Part shown: positions 586-51,022 of the stretch, in pieces
How positions within the stretch are numbered: the first letter of the stretch is position 1
Layout of the letters: every line of letters begins with the position of its first letter
Assembly: GCA_020250125.1 (NCBI GenBank)
Contig: JADCEL010000011.1
Span: forward strand, 1-51,022
Length of the DNA stretch: 51,022 bases
Reading direction: 5' to 3'
Origin: Rhodobacter sp.
GTDB taxonomy: Bacteria > Pseudomonadota > Alphaproteobacteria > Rhodobacterales > Rhodobacteraceae
Made by a program: the position numbers and the translations under genes
The notes under the pieces: generated by a model
Told to the model about the DNA's origin: nothing
Seen by the model: only the letters and a program-made list of their open reading frames with translations
The model's database searches: none

Positions 586-728
586 CTTTCCCCTGACCGG
601 AAAGATTTTCCCGCCCGGCAGGTGGTCGGAATGCTGTTTCAGAACCCTGACAGGCACCGGCAAGGGCGCGCCCATGGCCTGGGTGGCCTGCCAGTTCCCG
701 CCCTACACCCCCCGCAAACTGCCCCTGC
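586..728. other. Intergenic spacer between repeat array and galM fragment
   Basis: I see no gene, hairpin with a T-run, or known regulatory site here. The last repeat unit fades out at about 585 and the similarity to galM starts at 729. Confidence 0.5.
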
Positions 729-883
729 GTCACCTGCCGGTACGTCTCGCCCGGATCAAGCGTGACCGGCGGAAACCCCGGCTGGTTCGGCGCACCGGGC
801 CAGTGCCGGGCTTCCGGCGCCAGCCCGGCAAAGGGGCCGCAGGGCTGGCCGGAATGGCCGGGGAAGGTGCCGGTGTTCAGCGC
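729..883 (-). pseudogene. galM: Decayed duplicate of the galM 3' end
   Basis: This stretch matches 5227-5381, inside the intact galM, in the same orientation, without gaps and with 7 mismatches over about 154 bases by eye. On the minus strand it would encode about 51 residues of the C-terminal part of aldose 1-epimerase, including PGHSGQPCGPFAG and PPVTLDPGETYRQVTQ. At least five of the seven differences change the amino acid (for example P to T, L to P, D to G), as expected for a fragment no longer under selection. The catalytic His and most of the protein are missing, and the frame runs on into unrelated sequence. The two copies are direct repeats flanking a 4.3 kb cassette. They arose either by duplication on insertion of the cassette or as remnants of two galM genes. 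Confidence 0.85.
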
Positions 884-1132
884 ACCCCTCATCCGTCCGA
901 TCAGCCGTTTGGCCCCCCTTTGTTGCCCCGCAAGCTGAAGGGCGTCCGGTGCGCGACGCCCGTGATGTCAGGCTTTCCCTGACGCAAGGCCTTCGCCCGA
1001 TCACCCTCCGCAAGATGCCGGGACCGCGCATCCAGCCCGCCGCCGGCAGGCTGCGTCATTTTGAAACCACGGCCTTGGTGGCAGGATTTCACCCCCACAG
1101 TGTCATTTTCTGGAAAGTCATCCCCAGGCATT
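884..1132. other. Intergenic region upstream of the LytTR boxes
   Basis: No convincing gene is present. The stretch follows directly on the end of the galM duplicate and leads into the paired LytTR boxes. A small inverted repeat (GTCAGGctttcCCTGAC, about 966-982) is visible, with no T-run. Confidence 0.4.
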
Positions 1133-1162
1133 TCCGTTCGTGAAGGCAGTCCCACCGTTCGT
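1133..1162 (+). promoter_or_regulatory. Paired LytTR-type binding boxes upstream of the secreted hydrolase
   Basis: Two direct 9-mers, TCCGTTCGT (1133-1141) and ACCGTTCGT (1154-1162), both fit the published LytTR/AlgR consensus [TA][AC][CA]GTTN[AG][TA]. The 12-base spacer gives the typical 21-base (two-turn) periodicity. The repeat extends beyond the core as CCGTTCGTGAAGGC in both copies. The pair ends 89 bases before the hydrolase ATG (1252), suitable for activation. A LytTR regulator is encoded 2.5 kb downstream, and a second pair stands at 4895-4924. Binding itself is inferred. Confidence 0.75.
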
Positions 1163-1251
1163 GAAGGCGCGTCTGGTCACTTTGCGGCCCAGCTCCGATT
1201 GCTTGGCCGTCGGAGTCGCACATCCGCGCCCACGCTCAGAAAGGAACAACC

Positions 1252-2469
1252 ATGAAACGCGCCTATGTCTTTTCTCTCCTCTTCGCCGCACAGACAGCGG
1301 CGCATCCGGCCCTGGCAGACGAGGTTGAGTTCTATCGTGACATCCGGTCAAACCATTGGACATGGAATGGTGCGGACCCGCTCGTTCTCCAGGGCATCCT
1401 CGCGCGCGTCGCCGAAGCCGGGGCCGGAGCCGACTTTGTGGACATAAGCGGGGCCGGGGGTGCCCCGGTCTGGACCGAAGAGTTTGCCAGCGCCGGTGAC
1501 CGGCTTCGCACCCTGGCGCAGGAACAGGAAGCCCTCGGCCTGACCGGAGCGGCGGCGGCGCTCTACATGCGCGCCTCTGCTTACTACAGCCTCGCCAAGT
1601 ACCCGCTGATTGCCCCGAACCCGGCTGAGGTGGCGGCTTTCGAGGCCAGCCTCGAGACGCTCCACCGCGCCCACGAATTGCGCGGATTCGCAGTCGAGCG
1701 CGTCGCAGTACCCTTCCAGGATGGCGAAGCCGATGGTCACGTCCTGCTACCGCGGGGGGAAGCTCCGGCGGGCGGCTGGCCGCTGGTGATCGCTTCGAAC
1801 GGGATCGATGTGAACCAGGGCGAGTTCTTCACCTTCGCGGAGGACGTCGCAAGCCGCGGCATGGCGTTCCTGATGTATGACATCGCAGGGACCGGCACCA
1901 ATGCTGAGTTCCCGCTGGCGCCTGACTACGAAGAATTGCCGGTCGCTCTGGCCGAGGCGCTTGGCGCAACAGACCGGTTCGATGAAGACCGTATTGCCAT
2001 CATGGGGGTCAGCTTCGGGGGCAACGCGGCGGTGAAGCTCGCACATACGCGGGCCGATCTCTTCGCGGCCTCGGTCAATGTCTGCGGCCCGCTGCATTCG
2101 GCCTTCCAGGTGCCGGAGGATCAGCTCGAGAGCGTCGGCCTGATGTACCGCCTTGCGCTTTATGACCGGACCGAGATCGACGGCGGGGCCGATCCTGCCG
2201 GCTTCCTCGCCCATATGCGTGGCTTTTCCCTGATCGACCAGGGCGTCATCGTGCCAGGCGAGACGGTAACGGTTGTACCGATCCTGTCAGTGAACGCCCG
2301 CAACGACTACGTGGCACCTGAGTTCGATATGGAGCTTGCGAACAACTCCACCGTCGACGGCACGCTGATCTACAGCGGTACTGACGATCACTGTCCGCAG
2401 GATCGCTTCACGGTGATGCCGCAGATCGCTGACTGGCTCGAACAGCGCCTGTCCCCCGGCGCGAACTGA
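1252..2469 (+). CDS. Secreted alpha/beta hydrolase (FrsA/DUF1100-like esterase)
   Basis: 405 residues. A cleavable signal peptide covers about residues 1-22 (MKRAYVFSLLFAAQ, ending AHPALA-DE), so the enzyme should act in the periplasm or outside. The C-terminal two thirds is an alpha/beta hydrolase: nucleophile elbow GVSFGG (Ser254), acid in NARNDY (about Asp352), and a late catalytic His in GTDDHCPQD (His380). Overall layout, with a helical N-terminal part before the core, resembles the FrsA/DUF1100 esterase group; the substrate is unknown. The ATG is preceded by AAAGGAA with 5-6 bases spacing. The LytTR box pair at 1133-1162 makes it the likely main target of the LytTR regulator encoded at 3732. 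A 26-codon stump of a diverged paralogue lies at 3554-3634. Confidence 0.8.
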   Translation: MKRAYVFSLLFAAQTAAHPALADEVEFYRDIRSNHWTWNGADPLVLQGILARVAEAGAGADFVDISGAGGAPVWTEEFASAGDRLRTLAQEQEALGLTGAAAALYMRASAYYSLAKYPLIAPNPAEVAAFEASLETLHRAHELRGFAVERVAVPFQDGEADGHVLLPRGEAPAGGWPLVIASNGIDVNQGEFFTFAEDVASRGMAFLMYDIAGTGTNAEFPLAPDYEELPVALAEALGATDRFDEDRIAIMGVSFGGNAAVKLAHTRADLFAASVNVCGPLHSAFQVPEDQLESVGLMYRLALYDRTEIDGGADPAGFLAHMRGFSLIDQGVIVPGETVTVVPILSVNARNDYVAPEFDMELANNSTVDGTLIYSGTDDHCPQDRFTVMPQIADWLEQRLSPGAN

Positions 2470-2493
2470 TCCCTTCCCCGAGATGGGAAAGCC

Positions 2494-2516
2494 GCCCGGC
2501 CGGGTAACGGCCGGGC
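2494..2516 (+). terminator. Strong hairpin after the hydrolase gene, no T-run
   Basis: Perfect 9-base stem GCCCGGCCG-ggtaa-CGGCCGGGC, 24 bases after the hydrolase stop and 36 bases before the next ATG. Without a T tract it may be a weak terminator or an mRNA-stabilising hairpin separating expression of the two genes. Confidence 0.45.
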
Positions 2517-2552
2517 ACCCCCTGGCCACTAAATCCTTCTTGGAAAGAAGCA

Positions 2553-3491
2553 ATGTCTGAAAAAATCCACCGCCCGGTCTTCCGCCGTGAAACAGCAAAT
2601 GCCCGAAAGCTCGGAATTGTCGGCTTGACGGTCACCGCGCTCATTGCCTCAGGGCACGTCTTGTTCAATACGCGCACTGGCGTTCACGCTGTCTTCGAGA
2701 TTTTCGGGATTGGCGGTGACACTCCCGAATGGGTCGCCAGCCCCGAAGACCCGCCCGTGCCAGTGGTGCAAACCGCTGCACTGACCCGGAGCCTCACCTA
2801 TCCGGGCGAAATCCTCCAACCGTCGGGAATCGCTTGGGATGCCAGCGCGGATCAGTTTCTGATCGTCACCGACCAGGCCGAGCTCTTTGCGGTTTCCCGG
2901 CACCTCGACAAGCTGCTGTCTCGCACGACAATGAGCCGGGCTCCCCTGATCGCCCGGCAGGGCAGCGTGGAAACGGTTGCCGCCCTCGAAAGCGGTGCGG
3001 TCGTGGCTGGCCGTGACCACAGCCTGCCCACCTGGCAGGCGACAGACGGCGTTTGGCGTCGTGGCGAAACGCTGCGTACGGACGGATCCGGCCTCCCGGC
3101 GTCCGGCGACGTCACGGCCATGGCTTTCGAGCCGGGCACGGGACGCCTCTTCGCCGCGGATGAGGACGGCGGGTTATGGAGGCAAGCCCAGTCCGGCTCG
3201 GGATGGGAGCCGCTGGTCCTGAGCGGTGAAGTCCGTGAAGGCAGAACTCTCGACGAATACAGGATCGTGGGCCTCGAGTATAATGCGGGCCGTCTTTACG
3301 CTCTGACGGCGCACTATCCGAACATCCTCGTCATCGATCCGGCCTCGGGACGCATCGAGCAAGCCTTCGCCCTGGACGGGCTACGGGATCAATCGGGTCT
3401 TGCGATTGTGGGCGGCGAAGCATTCGTCACAGTCGATCACGAATACGACGAAGCATCCCCGGGTCTGATGGTCTTTGATCTCGGGGGATGA
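2553..3491 (+). CDS. Membrane-anchored SdiA-regulated (YjiK-like) domain protein
   Basis: 312 residues. A hydrophobic segment near residues 19-36 (KLGIVGLTVTALIASG) probably anchors the protein, with the bulk in the periplasm. The following domain has short beta-propeller-like repeats, such as SGIAWDASADQFLIVTDQ and GLEYNAGRLYALTAHYPN followed by DQSGLAIVGG, which recall the SdiA-regulated/YjiK family. The assignment is moderate and the biochemical role of that family is poorly known. A good ribosome binding site (GGAAAGAAG) precedes the ATG. It follows the secreted hydrolase in the same direction and probably belongs to the same LytTR-linked cassette, possibly by read-through of the hairpin at 2494-2516. 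Confidence 0.6.
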   Translation: MSEKIHRPVFRRETANARKLGIVGLTVTALIASGHVLFNTRTGVHAVFEIFGIGGDTPEWVASPEDPPVPVVQTAALTRSLTYPGEILQPSGIAWDASADQFLIVTDQAELFAVSRHLDKLLSRTTMSRAPLIARQGSVETVAALESGAVVAGRDHSLPTWQATDGVWRRGETLRTDGSGLPASGDVTAMAFEPGTGRLFAADEDGGLWRQAQSGSGWEPLVLSGEVREGRTLDEYRIVGLEYNAGRLYALTAHYPNILVIDPASGRIEQAFALDGLRDQSGLAIVGGEAFVTVDHEYDEASPGLMVFDLGG

Positions 3492-3553
3492 TTGCCGTCT
3501 GGCCAGGCCGCGGGGTTGCTTGAGCGGGCGCGGGAAACCTGATGTTCTGGCTT

Positions 3554-3634
3554 CAAGACCGTTTCACGGTGATGCCGCAGATTGCGCACTGGCGCGCGCA
3601 GAAACTGGCGGTCAGCGCAGGAGAAGCAGGATAA
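3554..3634 (+). pseudogene. C-terminal stump of a second secreted alpha/beta hydrolase
   Basis: 26 codons plus a TAA stop read QDRFTVMPQIAHW followed by a divergent tail. The hydrolase at 1252-2469 ends QDRFTVMPQIADW plus tail, so the last 13 positions before the tail match at 12. At the DNA level the two are clearly diverged at third positions, so this is the end of an old paralogue rather than a recent copy. Upstream of 3554 the similarity ends abruptly, and no signal peptide, nucleophile or other hydrolase part is left. It sits between the SdiA-regulated-like gene and the LytTR gene, where the missing paralogue must once have been. Confidence 0.75.
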
Positions 3635-3647
3635 GGCGACAGTATCG

Positions 3648-3670
3648 CCCGGACGCCACCGGCGTCCGGG
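3648..3670 (+). terminator. Perfect 10-base hairpin before the LytTR gene
   Basis: CCCGGACGCC-acc-GGCGTCCGGG, starting 14 bases after the stop of the hydrolase stump. No T-run follows. It would fit as the old terminator of the lost hydrolase paralogue, insulating the LytTR gene. Confidence 0.45.
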
Positions 3671-3731
3671 TCAACTTGCGCAAAGGATGGAAAACTGCTC
3701 CACTCCCCCGCGTGAGGTGCCGGGGAGCGGA

Positions 3732-4664
3732 ATGACTCGCATTGCAATGACATTGTCTGCAATCGGTCGCGACACATGGCGCAACCCGATCACCTTCTTC
3801 CTTGTCTGGGTCCCGTCGCTGACCGTTCTCATTCTCAGCGTAAACCCCTCGCTTACAGCAGATATTGCGCCATTTCAGCGGATCGCCTTCTGGCTGTTGC
3901 ACGTGGCGCTGCTTCTGCCTTTGCTGATGATCGCGCAGAACCTGATTGATGAGGCGCTGGCGGCCTTTCGCCTCAGCCCCGTCATTCTGGTGACTTTGAC
4001 GGCACTCTGCGCATCCGTTGTCTTTGCGCCGGTCTCGCTGCTTTTGGACCTTTTGTTTTCGCCCGCCCCGGATCTGGGTTCGGAACCTTCACTGACATTG
4101 CTGCTGATTGACGAGATCACTGCTTTGGCGCTGCCAACGCTGTGTGCCTGGCTTCTTGTCAACGGAGCGCGCCTGACGATGCTGTCGGTGCCGATGATCC
4201 AGGAAGCGTCATCCCCCGAAAGCGAAGCGGCAAAGGGGCAGTCCGGGCGTGACCCGGCAAAAGAGGCTGGGCCCGCCTCGGGACTGACAGATATTGAAAG
4301 GGCTTTCTGGTCGAAGGTTCCGCGCGAGCTGGGAGCTGAACTCGTCTCGCTGTCTGCAGATCAGCATTATCTGCATGTGGTCACAACAAAGGGCCGCAGT
4401 CTGATCCTGTTTCCCATCAGTCGCGCGATTCAGGCGGCGGAACGCTTTGAAGGGATGCGGATTCACAGGTCGCATTGGGTCGCGTTCAGGCAGGTGACAG
4501 CGCTGTCAAAGGACGATACTGGCCTGTTCGTCTGTCTTTCAAGCGGGGAAAAGCTTCCGGTAAGCCGGTCAAGCCAGCAGGCCGTCAAGGCCGCACTTGA
4601 TGCCCACGCACTGCGTCGCGTGTCCAGCCAGTTTGAAGCAGGAAAAGCGAAAGCCGCCCGGTGA
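3732..4664 (+). CDS. Membrane-bound LytTR-family transcriptional regulator
   Basis: 310 residues from the ATG at 3732, preceded by GGGGAGCGG; an upstream in-frame start would give an implausible basic N-terminus. The first 145 residues hold four hydrophobic segments (about 20-37, 50-70, 83-107, 120-145). A charged linker (about 158-190) leads to a LytTR DNA-binding domain at about 195-290, with SLSADQHYLHVVTTKG, MRIHRSHWVAF and KLPVSRS typical of the family. There is no receiver domain, so the signal presumably enters through the membrane part rather than a phosphorelay. LytTR-type box pairs at 1133-1162 and 4895-4924 flank the cassette, implying control of the neighbouring secreted-protein genes. 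The signal and any partner are unknown. Confidence 0.85.
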   Translation: MTRIAMTLSAIGRDTWRNPITFFLVWVPSLTVLILSVNPSLTADIAPFQRIAFWLLHVALLLPLLMIAQNLIDEALAAFRLSPVILVTLTALCASVVFAPVSLLLDLLFSPAPDLGSEPSLTLLLIDEITALALPTLCAWLLVNGARLTMLSVPMIQEASSPESEAAKGQSGRDPAKEAGPASGLTDIERAFWSKVPRELGAELVSLSADQHYLHVVTTKGRSLILFPISRAIQAAERFEGMRIHRSHWVAFRQVTALSKDDTGLFVCLSSGEKLPVSRSSQQAVKAALDAHALRRVSSQFEAGKAKAAR

Positions 4665-4707
4665 CGCAGGCTGCCGACCTGGGCACGCGCGGACTCTCCA
4701 GCCCCCG

Positions 4708-4730
4708 TCCGTTTGTCAGACAACTGTTCG
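4708..4730 (+). promoter_or_regulatory. Degenerate LytTR-like double box (wrong spacing)
   Basis: TCCGTTTGT (4708-4716) fits the LytTR consensus and is followed by CAGACAACTGTTCG. The same string occurs in the good site at 4895-4924, except that six bases (AAAGGC) between the halves are missing here, so the GTT cores are 15 rather than 21 bases apart. It looks like a duplicated site disabled by a deletion. Confidence 0.45.
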
Positions 4731-4894
4731 ACCATGGATCGGGGCCGCCTGTGCCGGGAAACGGCACGTCATGCCTTTGTTTTGCTGCCGGATGATCGGC
4801 CGGGCGGCGCAAGAAGTCCGTGCATGCGACGATCAGGCAATTCGGCGGAAGGCCTGGACAGCAGTGCCTGGTGTCACCCGCCCTTCCGTCAGTG

Positions 4895-4924
4895 ACCGTT
4901 TGTAAAGGCCAGACAACTGTTCGT
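4895..4924 (+). promoter_or_regulatory. Paired LytTR-type binding boxes, second site
   Basis: ACCGTTTGT (4895-4903) fits the LytTR consensus perfectly and ACTGTTCGT (4916-4924) deviates at one position. The GTT cores are 21 bases apart, as in the first site, and the downstream half is again followed by GAAGGC. It lies about 100 bases before the likely (lost) start of the secreted-protein remnant. In the first site the same distance, from the second GTT core to the hydrolase ATG, is 95 bases, so both promoters share the same architecture. Confidence 0.7.
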
Positions 4925-4982
4925 GAAGGCATCCTTTCTTCTTTGGCCCACACTGTCGCAAAGCCCGGTCTGTCCCTGGCAA

Positions 4983-5159
4983 ATGAGCAGGCGGACGCAC
5001 ACTGGAACTGAAGGAACCAACAAGGTCACAAGGGCGCGATGCGCCCTTGGTGGCAAACTTGCCGTAATCTGCCTGCTGGCGGCAGTCGCGCCCTCGCCCG
5101 GCTTTGCGGAAACACCCATCCGCCCCGACCCCATGCTGTTGGAGGGGGCAAGACCCTGA
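4983..5159 (+). pseudogene. Remnant of a LytTR-controlled secreted protein (signal peptide only)
   Basis: The frame reads a clear signal peptide (GGKLAVICLLAAVAPSPGFA, then ETPIRPDP) and stops after about 45 residues at 5159, shortly before the galM sequence. A ribosome binding site (GAAGGAACC) is present, but where the hydrolase gene has ATG after AAAGGAACAACC this copy has AAG (5022-5024). The only in-frame ATG nearby (4983) has no ribosome binding site. I read this as the 5' end of a secreted-protein gene that lost its start codon and was truncated at the galM junction. It is too short to identify the product. Confidence 0.55.
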
Positions 5160-5172
5160 AAGAACGCCCGGT

Positions 5173-5192
5173 GCACGGGTGAACGTGCTTTT
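5173..5192 (+). terminator. Possible small terminator
   Basis: GCACG-ggtgaa-CGTGC followed by TTTT, 14 bases after the stop of the secreted-protein remnant on the plus strand. The stem is only 5 bases, so support is weak. Confidence 0.3.
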
Positions 5193-5201
5193 CCTGCAGA
5201 T

Positions 5202-6191
5202 TCAGGCTGCGTTGAACCGCCACTGTGTCACCTGCCGGTATGTCTCGCCCGGATCAAGCGTGACCGGCGGAAACCCCGGCTGGTTCGGCGCATCGGGCCA
5301 GCGCTGGGCTTCCAGTGCCAGCCCGGCAAAGGGGCCGCAGGGCTGGCCGGAATGGCCGGGGAAGGGGCCGGTGTTCAGCGCGCGTCCGTCATAAACCTGC
5401 AGGCCGGGTTCGGTGGTGGCAAGGGTCATCGCCACATGGTCGCCCGCAAGCCGGGCCACGTCGGTCAGGCTGCGGGGTGCCGGGGCCAGGCAGAAATTGT
5501 GATCAAATCCTTCCGTCCCGTCGATCCGCCGCGGACGGCGCAGATCGAAGGTGCCCGAGACGGCGCGCCGCTCTCCCGTCGGAAGATTGGCGGCATCGGT
5601 CGGCAGACAGGCGTCTGCGGCGACGGTCAGGGTATGGCCGAAGGTGGTGGCGCTGCCGTTCAGGTTCCAGTAACTGTGGCTGGCAAGGTTCATCAGCGTC
5701 GGCGCATCGGTTGTGGCCGACAGGCGCAAGGTCAGGGCGCTGCCCGCCACGCTGTAGTCTGCGGTGATCTGCCGCCGCCCCGGAAAGCCGTCATCGCCAT
5801 CTTCAAGGGTCAGCGACAGGCGAACGGTGGTCGCCGTTGCCCCGTCAACGGACCAGAGCCGGGTCTGGGTGCCGGTTGCGCCGCCATGCAGCAGTGTCGT
5901 GCCTTCGTTCGCGGCAAAGCGGTACAGCCGCCCGCCGATCCGGGCCTGCGCGCGCGCGATGCGGTTGGCAACCGGCCCCACAATCGTGCCGAAATAGCCC
6001 ATCGGGCCTTCATAGGCCGCCATGACGGGGCCGCCCAGGGTCAGGGAATGCGCCATGCCGGGCAGGCGCACATCCTGCAGGGCGGCCCCGAAACTGAGGA
6101 TTGTCACCGCCAGATCGGCAGTGCCGATGCGGATGGCCGCCACGGGCTGTCCGGCGGCTGTCTGCCCGAAGGGCGCTATACTGGCGGACAC
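5202..6191 (-). CDS. galM: Aldose 1-epimerase (mutarotase)
   Basis: 329 residues. It interconverts alpha and beta anomers of aldoses in the cytoplasm. Family motifs in order: NRIA, NEGTTLLHGG (first conserved His region), SHSYWNL (catalytic acid His), EGFDHNF (conserved Asp), GLQVYDG, and GLALEAQ with the catalytic Glu near the C-terminus. The GTG at 6191 is chosen because AAGGA stands 5 bases before it; the ATG 24 bases upstream has no ribosome binding site. It lies 49 bases downstream of znuA on the same strand and could be read through from it. Its last ~51 codons are duplicated at 729-883. Confidence 0.9.
   Translation of the reverse strand: MSASIAPFGQTAAGQPVAAIRIGTADLAVTILSFGAALQDVRLPGMAHSLTLGGPVMAAYEGPMGYFGTIVGPVANRIARAQARIGGRLYRFAANEGTTLLHGGATGTQTRLWSVDGATATTVRLSLTLEDGDDGFPGRRQITADYSVAGSALTLRLSATTDAPTLMNLASHSYWNLNGSATTFGHTLTVAADACLPTDAANLPTGERRAVSGTFDLRRPRRIDGTEGFDHNFCLAPAPRSLTDVARLAGDHVAMTLATTEPGLQVYDGRALNTGPFPGHSGQPCGPFAGLALEAQRWPDAPNQPGFPPVTLDPGETYRQVTQWRFNAA
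5227..5381. repeat. Right arm of a ~154-base direct repeat (left arm 729-883)
   Basis: This part of the galM coding sequence is about 95 percent identical to 729-883, without gaps and in the same orientation. The arms bracket the LytTR cassette, so recombination between them would delete about 4.5 kb and leave one copy in galM. Confidence 0.85.
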
Positions 6192-6240
6192 CGGATTCCT
6201 TTCGATCAGCCGCAAGGCTGCGCCGGAACAGCCGGTCCGG

Positions 6241-50529: not shown

Positions 50530-50599
50530 GCAGGACACTTCCGCAGGTCCGGCAAGACTGAACAGGGTGGTGATGAGGTGCCGGTCGCAAGGGCACCGT

Positions 50600-51022
50600 C
50601 CCGTGCCGGCGGGGGAAACGCGGGTCGCGTTTCGCGGTCCCGCCGGGACGGGCGATTGCACCATCGCTGCTTGATTGGCAAAGGCCATCGCCTTTGCCAC
50701 AGCGCAAGGCCGGTCCTTGTCCCGCCGGGGGGCCCAAAGCCCCCCGGCCAGCGCCCGACCCGCCCCTGGCGGGCGCTTCGCACCCGCCGGGTCGGGCGCA
50801 GGCCTTTCGTGGTGCCTGGACCCACCGGTCTGCGGGGCACCGTCGCGCAGGGGCGGGGGAAACGCGGGTCGCGTTTCCTGTTCCCGCCCGCAGTGACGAA
50901 AGCGCTGCCCCCGCTGCAATGGCAGGGGCCATCGTCCCTGCCACAGCGCCACGCTGATCCTTGCCCAGCCGGGGGCCAAAGCCCCCGGCCAGTATCCGTG
51001 TTCGTCAAGGGTTTCGTACTGG
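50600..51022 (-). repeat. Tandem copies of the ~240-base hairpin unit, inverted relative to the left end
   Basis: At least two units with a period of 244 bases (GGGGGAAACGCGGGTCGCG recurs at 50611 and 50855). On the minus strand they show the same order of hairpins as the left array: hairpin I (GCCGGGGGC-caaa-GCCCCCGGC at 50968-50989), hairpin II in two versions (GGCAAAGGC-catc-GCCTTTGCC at 50677-50698; GGCAGGGGC-catc-GTCCCTGCC at 50921-50942) and hairpin III (GAAACGCG-ggt-CGCGTTTC). The array may continue right of the window. Confidence 0.85.

Follow-up and report, generated by a model that had tools for sequence, protein, structure and literature searches.

Paired direct repeats beside the genes of a predicted membrane-bound LytTR regulator and a predicted secreted esterase in Rhodobacter

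The canonical LytTR site is a pair of 9-bp direct repeats with a spacing of 10-13 bp (PMC11347149). Many alphaproteobacteria possess membrane-bound LytTR regulators, and LytTR proteins of Caulobacter are mentioned in a survey of transmembrane regulators (PMC10269533). The DNA targets of the class, like the manner in which a protein held in the membrane finds its promoters, are barely known. Two of them, CoxC (PMC11347149) and HigX (PMC13384398), have been described. HigX of Caulobacter crescentus (PLoS Genet, July 2026) is a four-helix LytTR regulator of the cell envelope whose gene is almost always beside that of a putative hydrolase, and its authors suggest a 'fused LRS' family, LRS standing for LytTR Regulatory System (PMC13384398). 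Regulation of a promoter was obtained with full-length HigX but not with its isolated DNA-binding domain (PMC13384398). This is the sole chromatin-immunoprecipitation study that we found, and it reports an inverted repeat unlike the classical LytTR site. The present analysis concerns a 51,022-nucleotide stretch of Rhodobacter sp. DNA (the window, identical with contig C3 of a draft genome that measures 3.28 Mb at 87% completeness), where a 4.3 kb cassette holds the gene of a four-helix LytTR protein and two paired direct-repeat sites. Judging from sequence comparison, we consider it likely that this protein is a membrane-bound one-component regulator, probably an activator, with operators at adjacent envelope genes. 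The original prediction, made from the letters of the window, knew of no described system of this composition; CoxC and HigX are described alphaproteobacterial regulators of the membrane-bound LytTR kind.

The paired sites, the regulator and the promoter

Site 1, a predicted operator on the plus strand (1134-1168), reads CCGTTCGTGAAGGC-N7-CCGTTCGTGAAGGC, and site 2, likewise predicted and on the plus strand (4896-4930), reads CCGTTTGTAAAGGC-N7-CTGTTCGTGAAGGC. Each consists of two 14-mers with a period of 21, and the two sites are alike at 77% over 35 bases. The period leaves 12 bases between 9-mers, which at both sites is within the canonical LytTR spacing. With up to 3 mismatches allowed, the core pair pattern matches the window twice against 0.04 matches expected; the single half-site, at the same tolerance, matches 11 times against 7.9 expected and is not rarer than chance. 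It is the pairing, not the single half-site, that is special. A search of the own genome with the 14-N7-14 pattern (up to 3 mismatches) returned 2 matches only, both in the cassette, and 0 for the reversed control. The two double 9-mers of the original prediction are present as described. The distances that it gave are also right: 95 bases separate the second GTT core of site 1 from the esterase ATG at 1252, and 103 bases separate the second core of site 2 from the codon AAG at 5022, the place at which one would look for a start. The further proposal that site 2 precedes a lost start at 5022 (105 bases past the first base of the second half-site) fares less well, the distance being correct but a usable ATG being present at 4983; it opens a truncated ORF (open reading frame) of 58 codons (4983-5159, plus strand).

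The regulator gene (3732-4664, plus strand) encodes 310 amino acids with a LytTR domain (PF04397, 5.5e-12; 46.2 bits against a curated cut-off of 22.6). No second Pfam family is matched with E values up to 0.1, and a receiver domain is absent. Hydropathy analysis finds four hydrophobic segments, and at least four are found in 11 of the 12 homologues examined (P0020 has three, and L003 has two additional weak ones). The AlphaFold2 model (pLDDT, the predicted local distance difference test, 81; pTM, the predicted template-modelling score, 0.48) shows four long helices, then a low-confidence linker at 152-181 and, at about residues 204-276, a LytTR fold with blocks of pLDDT >90. Foldseek matches the fold to the LytTR domains 3d6w and AgrA 4xqj. 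The regulator is accordingly predicted by modelling to be membrane-located with four N-terminal helices. That it is the only LytTR protein of the window, with four helices and without a receiver, had been read correctly from the letters; its gene is one of three LytTR genes in the genome, the others being a paralogue on contig C95 and one on contig C32 beside a coxM-like ORF.

The nine sites compared share more than the repeats. In seven of them a CTG[GA] starts 17 or 18 bases past the first base of the second half-site, which is 9-10 bases beyond the second 9-mer; at site 1 it is CTGGTC (1173-1178, plus strand), starting 18 bases past that base and 10 bases beyond the 9-mer. This CTGG element would be the -35 region. 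The distance from the second half-site to the start codon is 97-104 bases at five of the nine sites and 66, 79, 82 and 138 at the remaining four. An operator upstream of a conserved CTGG and ~100 bases before the start codon fits an activator, and the geometry resembles, by analogy, that of LytTR activators (repeats ~10 bp upstream of -35; PMC6193735) rather than that of CoxC.

As to binding, the sign of regulation, the operon and the signal, we infer the following from the sequence. The regulator would bind both paired sites and control the promoter of the predicted secreted-esterase operon at 1252. Its N-terminal four-helix bundle, lying in the inner membrane, would read the state of the membrane or envelope, while in a dimer each C-terminal LytTR domain would occupy one half-site, the two lying on the same side of the DNA at a distance of two helix turns. 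Upon a change in the membrane or envelope, the membrane-held dimer would recruit polymerase to the esterase operon. The esterase, propeller and regulator genes are co-directional behind site 1, and positive autoregulation is likely because the regulator gene follows in the same direction.

The arrangement in relatives and the specificity of the pattern

A scan by esterase alignment over one genome per GTDB species gave 8 loci. Esterase and LytTR genes occur together in four lineages, namely the window, Rhodobacter sp. M53BS1, Rhodophyticola porphyridii and Litoreibacter roseus, and all four have a pair with period 21 (respectively 0, 1, 3 and 0 mismatches to CCGTTCGYGAR taken twice). The M53BS1 locus (the G274 contig; same genus as the window) has its site (L037:8937) upstream of orthologous esterase, propeller and LytTR genes that are 89.5%, 95.5% and 61.5% identical; the site keeps 27 of 28 motif letters, and the surrounding DNA is about 58-59% identical per 100 columns. 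The R. porphyridii cluster (strain MA-7-27) consists of the site, placed ahead of the esterase operon, an esterase (74%), a MipA protein, another hydrolase and the LytTR protein (51%), with no propeller match at the locus, and in L. roseus (strain K6) the site is in the divergent region between the LytTR gene and a MipA-esterase-propeller operon. The pairs at L081:9810 and L044:6614 also speak for site 1. Rhodobacter sp. M051S1 has site 1, esterase and propeller on one contig and the LytTR gene on a different one, and the description of the cassette as self-contained does not find support here. A contig from a Methylocystis bin (L084, 3278 bases) carries part of the esterase gene and the propeller gene, about 98% identical to the window, and is probably misbinned. 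The DNA fetched around esterase relatives in Rubrivivax, Rhodovibrionaceae and Rhizobium (two of these loci being cut by a contig end) has no match to the window LytTR protein, and searches of plasmids with the regulator, the esterase and the cassette DNA gave matches of <60% identity or none.

Outside the four esterase clusters, 73 LytTR loci were searched for a pair defined as CCGTTCGTGMA twice with at most 2 mismatches and a period of 20 or 21. It is found in 4 of the 73, against a mean of 0.0 at ten other spacing pairs and 0.0 in shuffles, and the four regulators concerned all match one of two queries over the membrane part. In two of these loci (G283 and G091, the latter with a short ORF between) the pair lies between the LytTR gene and a divergent PAP2 phosphatase gene, and in the other two (G148 and G313) between the LytTR gene and that of a beta-barrel outer-membrane protein. 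The half-sites are mostly of the TGCA form at these distant loci and TGAA or TGAG at the esterase loci. Locus G158 has no pair at up to 4 mismatches. The paralogue of the own genome (L042/L003, G000:C95) has a weak 21-base pair upstream of a neighbouring beta-barrel outer-membrane-protein gene; weak pairs of this type, with 5, 5 and 4 mismatches, are present at the own paralogue and two orthologous loci (L038, L134). A weight matrix applied to 70 loci found period 21 in 11 and period 20 in 7, against a mean of 2.3. Of 60 trials with column-permuted matrices, one reached 11 at period 21 and five did so at some period, and we therefore rely on the mismatch count instead. A period of 31 (TTCGTGAA, 13 of 70 loci) was rejected as an operator: most occurrences lie at the start of the LytTR ORF, and several, by eye and without each being checked, are a GTG start with a conserved N-terminus of the ALRE type. 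Loci with this 31-base mimic near the ORF start include L020, L021, L032, L097, L101-L103, L106, L118, L119 and L122.

Across 295 genomes of the family the strict pattern (the window-derived 14-N7-14, up to 3 mismatches) occurs only in the own genome (2 sites) and in that of M53BS1, of the same genus (1 site), with 0 for the reversed control. The relaxed pattern, CCGTTCGYGAR twice with period 21, occurs at up to 1 mismatch in 4 places among 394 family genomes (393 genera), the reversed control in 1 place, and all four places are within 2.6 kb of a LytTR gene. Three are esterase loci (G000, G274 and, in Litoreibacter, G171), the pair preceding the esterase operon. The fourth (G047) is a tandem of period 21, with three adjacent pairs (2, 0 and 2 mismatches), between LytTR and coxM-like genes; this gap (L145 5467-5960), with its tandem TTCGTG-type repeats, looks like a cox operator. 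The check that had been suggested was a scan of related genomes for the 21-base pair near LytTR genes; in relatives the pair clusters with the regulator before esterase, MipA, PAP2 or outer-membrane-protein genes. The own LytTR gene on C32 (L002 676-1779) also stands in front of a coxM-like gene, as CoxC does, the gap there holding a weak pair only (6 mismatches); the names coxM and CoxC-like for L002 and L145 are ones that we presume from a reading of the protein starts.

We lean slightly towards a broader generalisation, that in the Rhodobacter family the four-helix LytTR regulators have a single operator code in common (TTCGTGMA repeats 20-21 apart, CTGG 17-18 past the second half-site, the start at ~100) and serve as modular switches wired to neighbouring envelope genes (secreted esterase, MipA, PAP2 phosphatase, beta-barrel protein), with A or C in the half-site splitting two specificity classes.

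The cassette, its proteins and its history

The order of the cassette, all on the plus strand, is site 1, FrsA-like hydrolase, propeller, a stretch like the 3' end of the esterase gene, LytTR gene, site 2 and the 58-codon ORF. The hydrolase (1252-2469, 405 amino acids; PF06500, 1.3e-37) is a predicted secreted esterase with a signal peptide recognised by eye. Its best solved relative is FrsA 3mve (FrsA structures 3mve/3our), and Ser254, Asp352 and His380, the presumed catalytic residues, are invariant in 3 aligned sequences. It belongs to the cassette of the regulator without being directly adjacent, the propeller gene lying between. That gene (2553-3491) specifies a beta-propeller protein of 312 amino acids with one N-terminal membrane helix and, by AlphaFold2 (pLDDT 82.6, pTM 0.81) and Foldseek, a glutaminyl-cyclase/YjiK-like fold: glutaminyl cyclases are the nearest folds, YjiK comes at rank 11, and PF06977 and PF05096 score below their cut-offs only. 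A protein search with it returned only 8 relatives at E 1e-8 or better.

The original prediction spoke of hydrolases in the plural. There is one intact esterase gene and, at 3547-3618 (plus strand), a 72-base remnant that is 72% identical to the 3' end of the esterase gene (2391-2462). What stands of the predicted envelope module for the control of secreted hydrolases is the LytTR-type operators, the predicted membrane-bound regulator, the link between them and the envelope or secreted targets; a second hydrolase is not supported. Site 2 as the front of a second esterase 5' end is likewise not claimed, the score being reached by 33, 150 and 6 of 300 shuffles in three comparisons. The 58-codon ORF, whose N-terminus is signal-peptide-like by eye and which is presumed to represent the lost target gene of site 2, does not convincingly resemble the beginning of the esterase. 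Among 7 genomes of the genus searched with the region 4660-5220, no other one matched it outside the galM tail.

The cassette is bracketed at its left by a duplicated 3' end of galM, the aldose 1-epimerase gene (717-883, plus strand, a 94% identical direct repeat of 5215-5381), and at its right by galM itself (5202-6215, minus strand; PF01263, 1.2e-60). Against M53BS1 the stretch from about 1660 to 3550 scores ~92-100% identity per 100 columns; ahead of it the values are 57-81%, and inside the LytTR gene 52-75%. The stretch is about 97-98% identical to another Rhodobacter species, a pattern suggesting that the esterase end and the propeller gene have been exchanged recently. Identity to M051S1 is 98% over 882-3524 (one contig) and 97% over 3658-4681 (another contig), and homology to the relative L079 starts at 882, the inner edge of the galM duplication. 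Because of the identity patterns with M53BS1 and M051S1, we regard the cassette, on sequence grounds, as a mosaic in which the site goes with the esterase. GC-rich repeat units of ~200-240 bases lie at both ends of the contig (window 1-540 and about 50579-50992), the same units lie at both ends of G274:C75 (L037 1-291 and 15828-15989), and the repeat is also seen by eye beside the paralogous LytTR gene (L003 about 240-340). They resemble members of a dispersed intergenic repeat family at which assemblies break.

Alternative readings and known systems

A number of observations weigh against an operator function of the pairs for the regulator of the window. Site 2 is without an intact target gene and fronts only the 58-codon ORF. 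In M051S1 the esterase does not neighbour the LytTR gene (95% identical), on whose contig the first 4 kb are devoid of a site (best match 6 mismatches); because this LytTR gene lies 255 bases from a contig end, the separation may be an assembly fault. Among the distant LytTR loci, 69 of 73 have no pair at up to 2 mismatches, and three of the four positive loci (L011, L039, L040) were already known from the first matrix when the pattern was widened to allow C and a period of 20, which leaves L146 as the only wholly independent one. The relaxed pattern loses its specificity at up to 3 mismatches, being present in 129 of 295 genomes (the reversed-control counts, unsummed, look similar). LytTR homologues are present in 167 of the 295 genomes and the strict pair in 2. 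A looser pattern taken class-wide does not rise above background, with 13 non-self places in 289 genomes against 19 for the reversed control, and a LytTR gene lies at 2 of the 13. No convincing -10 element was recognised by eye, a promoter scan not having been run. The HigX motif is reported to be an imperfect inverted repeat without spacer (PMC13384398), and the repeats of the window are direct.

Were the sites operators of the window LytTR protein, it might still act as a repressor, with a signal releasing repression. CoxC, an alphaproteobacterial membrane-bound LytTR protein, is a repressor (PMC11347149), and one of the relaxed matches is the tandem repeat between LytTR and coxM-like genes; CoxC operators, however, overlap the -35 box, and the CTG[GA] here, if it is indeed the -35 region, stands clear of the second 9-mer by 9-10 bases at seven of nine sites, as in LytTR activators. 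Repression is possible but, in our judgement, unlikely. We give less credence to the idea that the window regulator is a mere neighbour and that the main occupant of the sites is a different LytTR protein of the genome, the C95 paralogue or the cox-linked one. There are three LytTR genes to choose from, related proteins could share sites that differ as TGCA does from TGAA/TGAG, and regulator and site are apart in M051S1; against this, the pair accompanies LytTR orthologues of 51-100% identity in the window, G274 and Rhodophyticola, as well as a more distant one in Litoreibacter, and the paralogue has its own weaker conserved pair before the neighbouring outer-membrane-protein gene.

The propeller has to be considered in this connection. 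Its membrane anchor and its place after the esterase gene in the window, G274 and Litoreibacter would suit a two-protein LytTR Regulatory System, which joins a LytTR regulator to a membrane protein and uses direct repeats upstream of the promoter (PMC6193735), the propeller inhibiting the regulator or sensing for it. The Rhodophyticola locus has no propeller match, the helix count of the propeller is one rather than three or four, and the regulator is itself membrane-bound, unlike the soluble ones of Streptococcus mutans; nor is a soluble regulator gene followed here by that of a membrane inhibitor, what follows the gene of the membrane-bound regulator being site 2, the 58-codon ORF and galM. 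Propeller and esterase look like outputs, not essential parts, and a two-protein system seems to us a shade less probable even than binding by another LytTR protein. Least probable is that both pairs are non-functional leftovers of a duplicated promoter. The region has the marks of rearrangement (mosaic identity, the esterase 3' remnant, the duplicated galM tail, the truncated ORF behind site 2), and the likeness of the two pairs is 77% over 35 bases; yet a pair like site 1 is present in three other species with diverged flanks, and further pairs stand at unrelated genes beside LytTR.

The preferred reading, a membrane-bound activator with operators at adjacent envelope genes, offers a way into the class. 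Since a conserved operator whose spacing is fixed recurs close to the regulator gene in several genera, each member is provided with a short DNA probe and a reporter, which makes the class testable beyond Caulobacter and names candidate outputs of envelope circuits: a secreted esterase, MipA, PAP2 phosphatase and outer membrane proteins. Our literature search (subscription journals being mostly, and bioRxiv preprints wholly, outside it) yielded, among the matches listed, no paper that deals with this operator, with FrsA-like, MipA or PAP2 genes under LytTR control, or with LytTR proteins of this kind in Rhodobacter.

Among described systems, HigX is like the locus, when compared by description, in its membrane-bound LytTR protein, its cell-envelope targets and its hydrolase neighbour; the HigX hydrolase is of COG4188 and that of the window FrsA-like. 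The regulator is not filed as HigX itself because no match to the HigX motif (ATGTTASC-GSTACCAT) occurs in the window even with 3 mismatches allowed. CoxC (Afipia carboxidovorans, 2024, PMC11347149) is also a membrane-bound single-component LytTR protein with direct repeats at an adjacent operon, but it has a seven-helix MHYT domain and three repeats overlapping the -35, and represses as a carbon monoxide sensor; the window, in contrast, has four helices and pairs that are likely upstream of the promoter, and no MHYT domain of the CoxC subfamily is present in its regulator (Pfam finds LytTR only, and the hydrophobic segments number four, not seven). The LRS pairs HdrRM and BrsRM of S. mutans also use 9-bp direct repeats; the gap between these is 12 bp in most cases (11-13 overall), their position is often 10 bp before the -35, and the systems are autoregulated (PMC6193735), but they divide between a soluble regulator and a separate membrane inhibitor what the window has in one fused protein. 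The RcoM1 operator, as described in PMC11347149, is made of direct repeats of TTCNNGCA, a sequence near the TTCGTGMA core of the present sites, placed at intervals of 12-13 bp; RcoM1 has a haem sensor domain and three repeats. The protein class is thus already known (CoxC 2024, HigX 2026); what is new is the operator grammar, which is at odds with the inverted repeat reported for HigX, and the set of targets to which it is attached.

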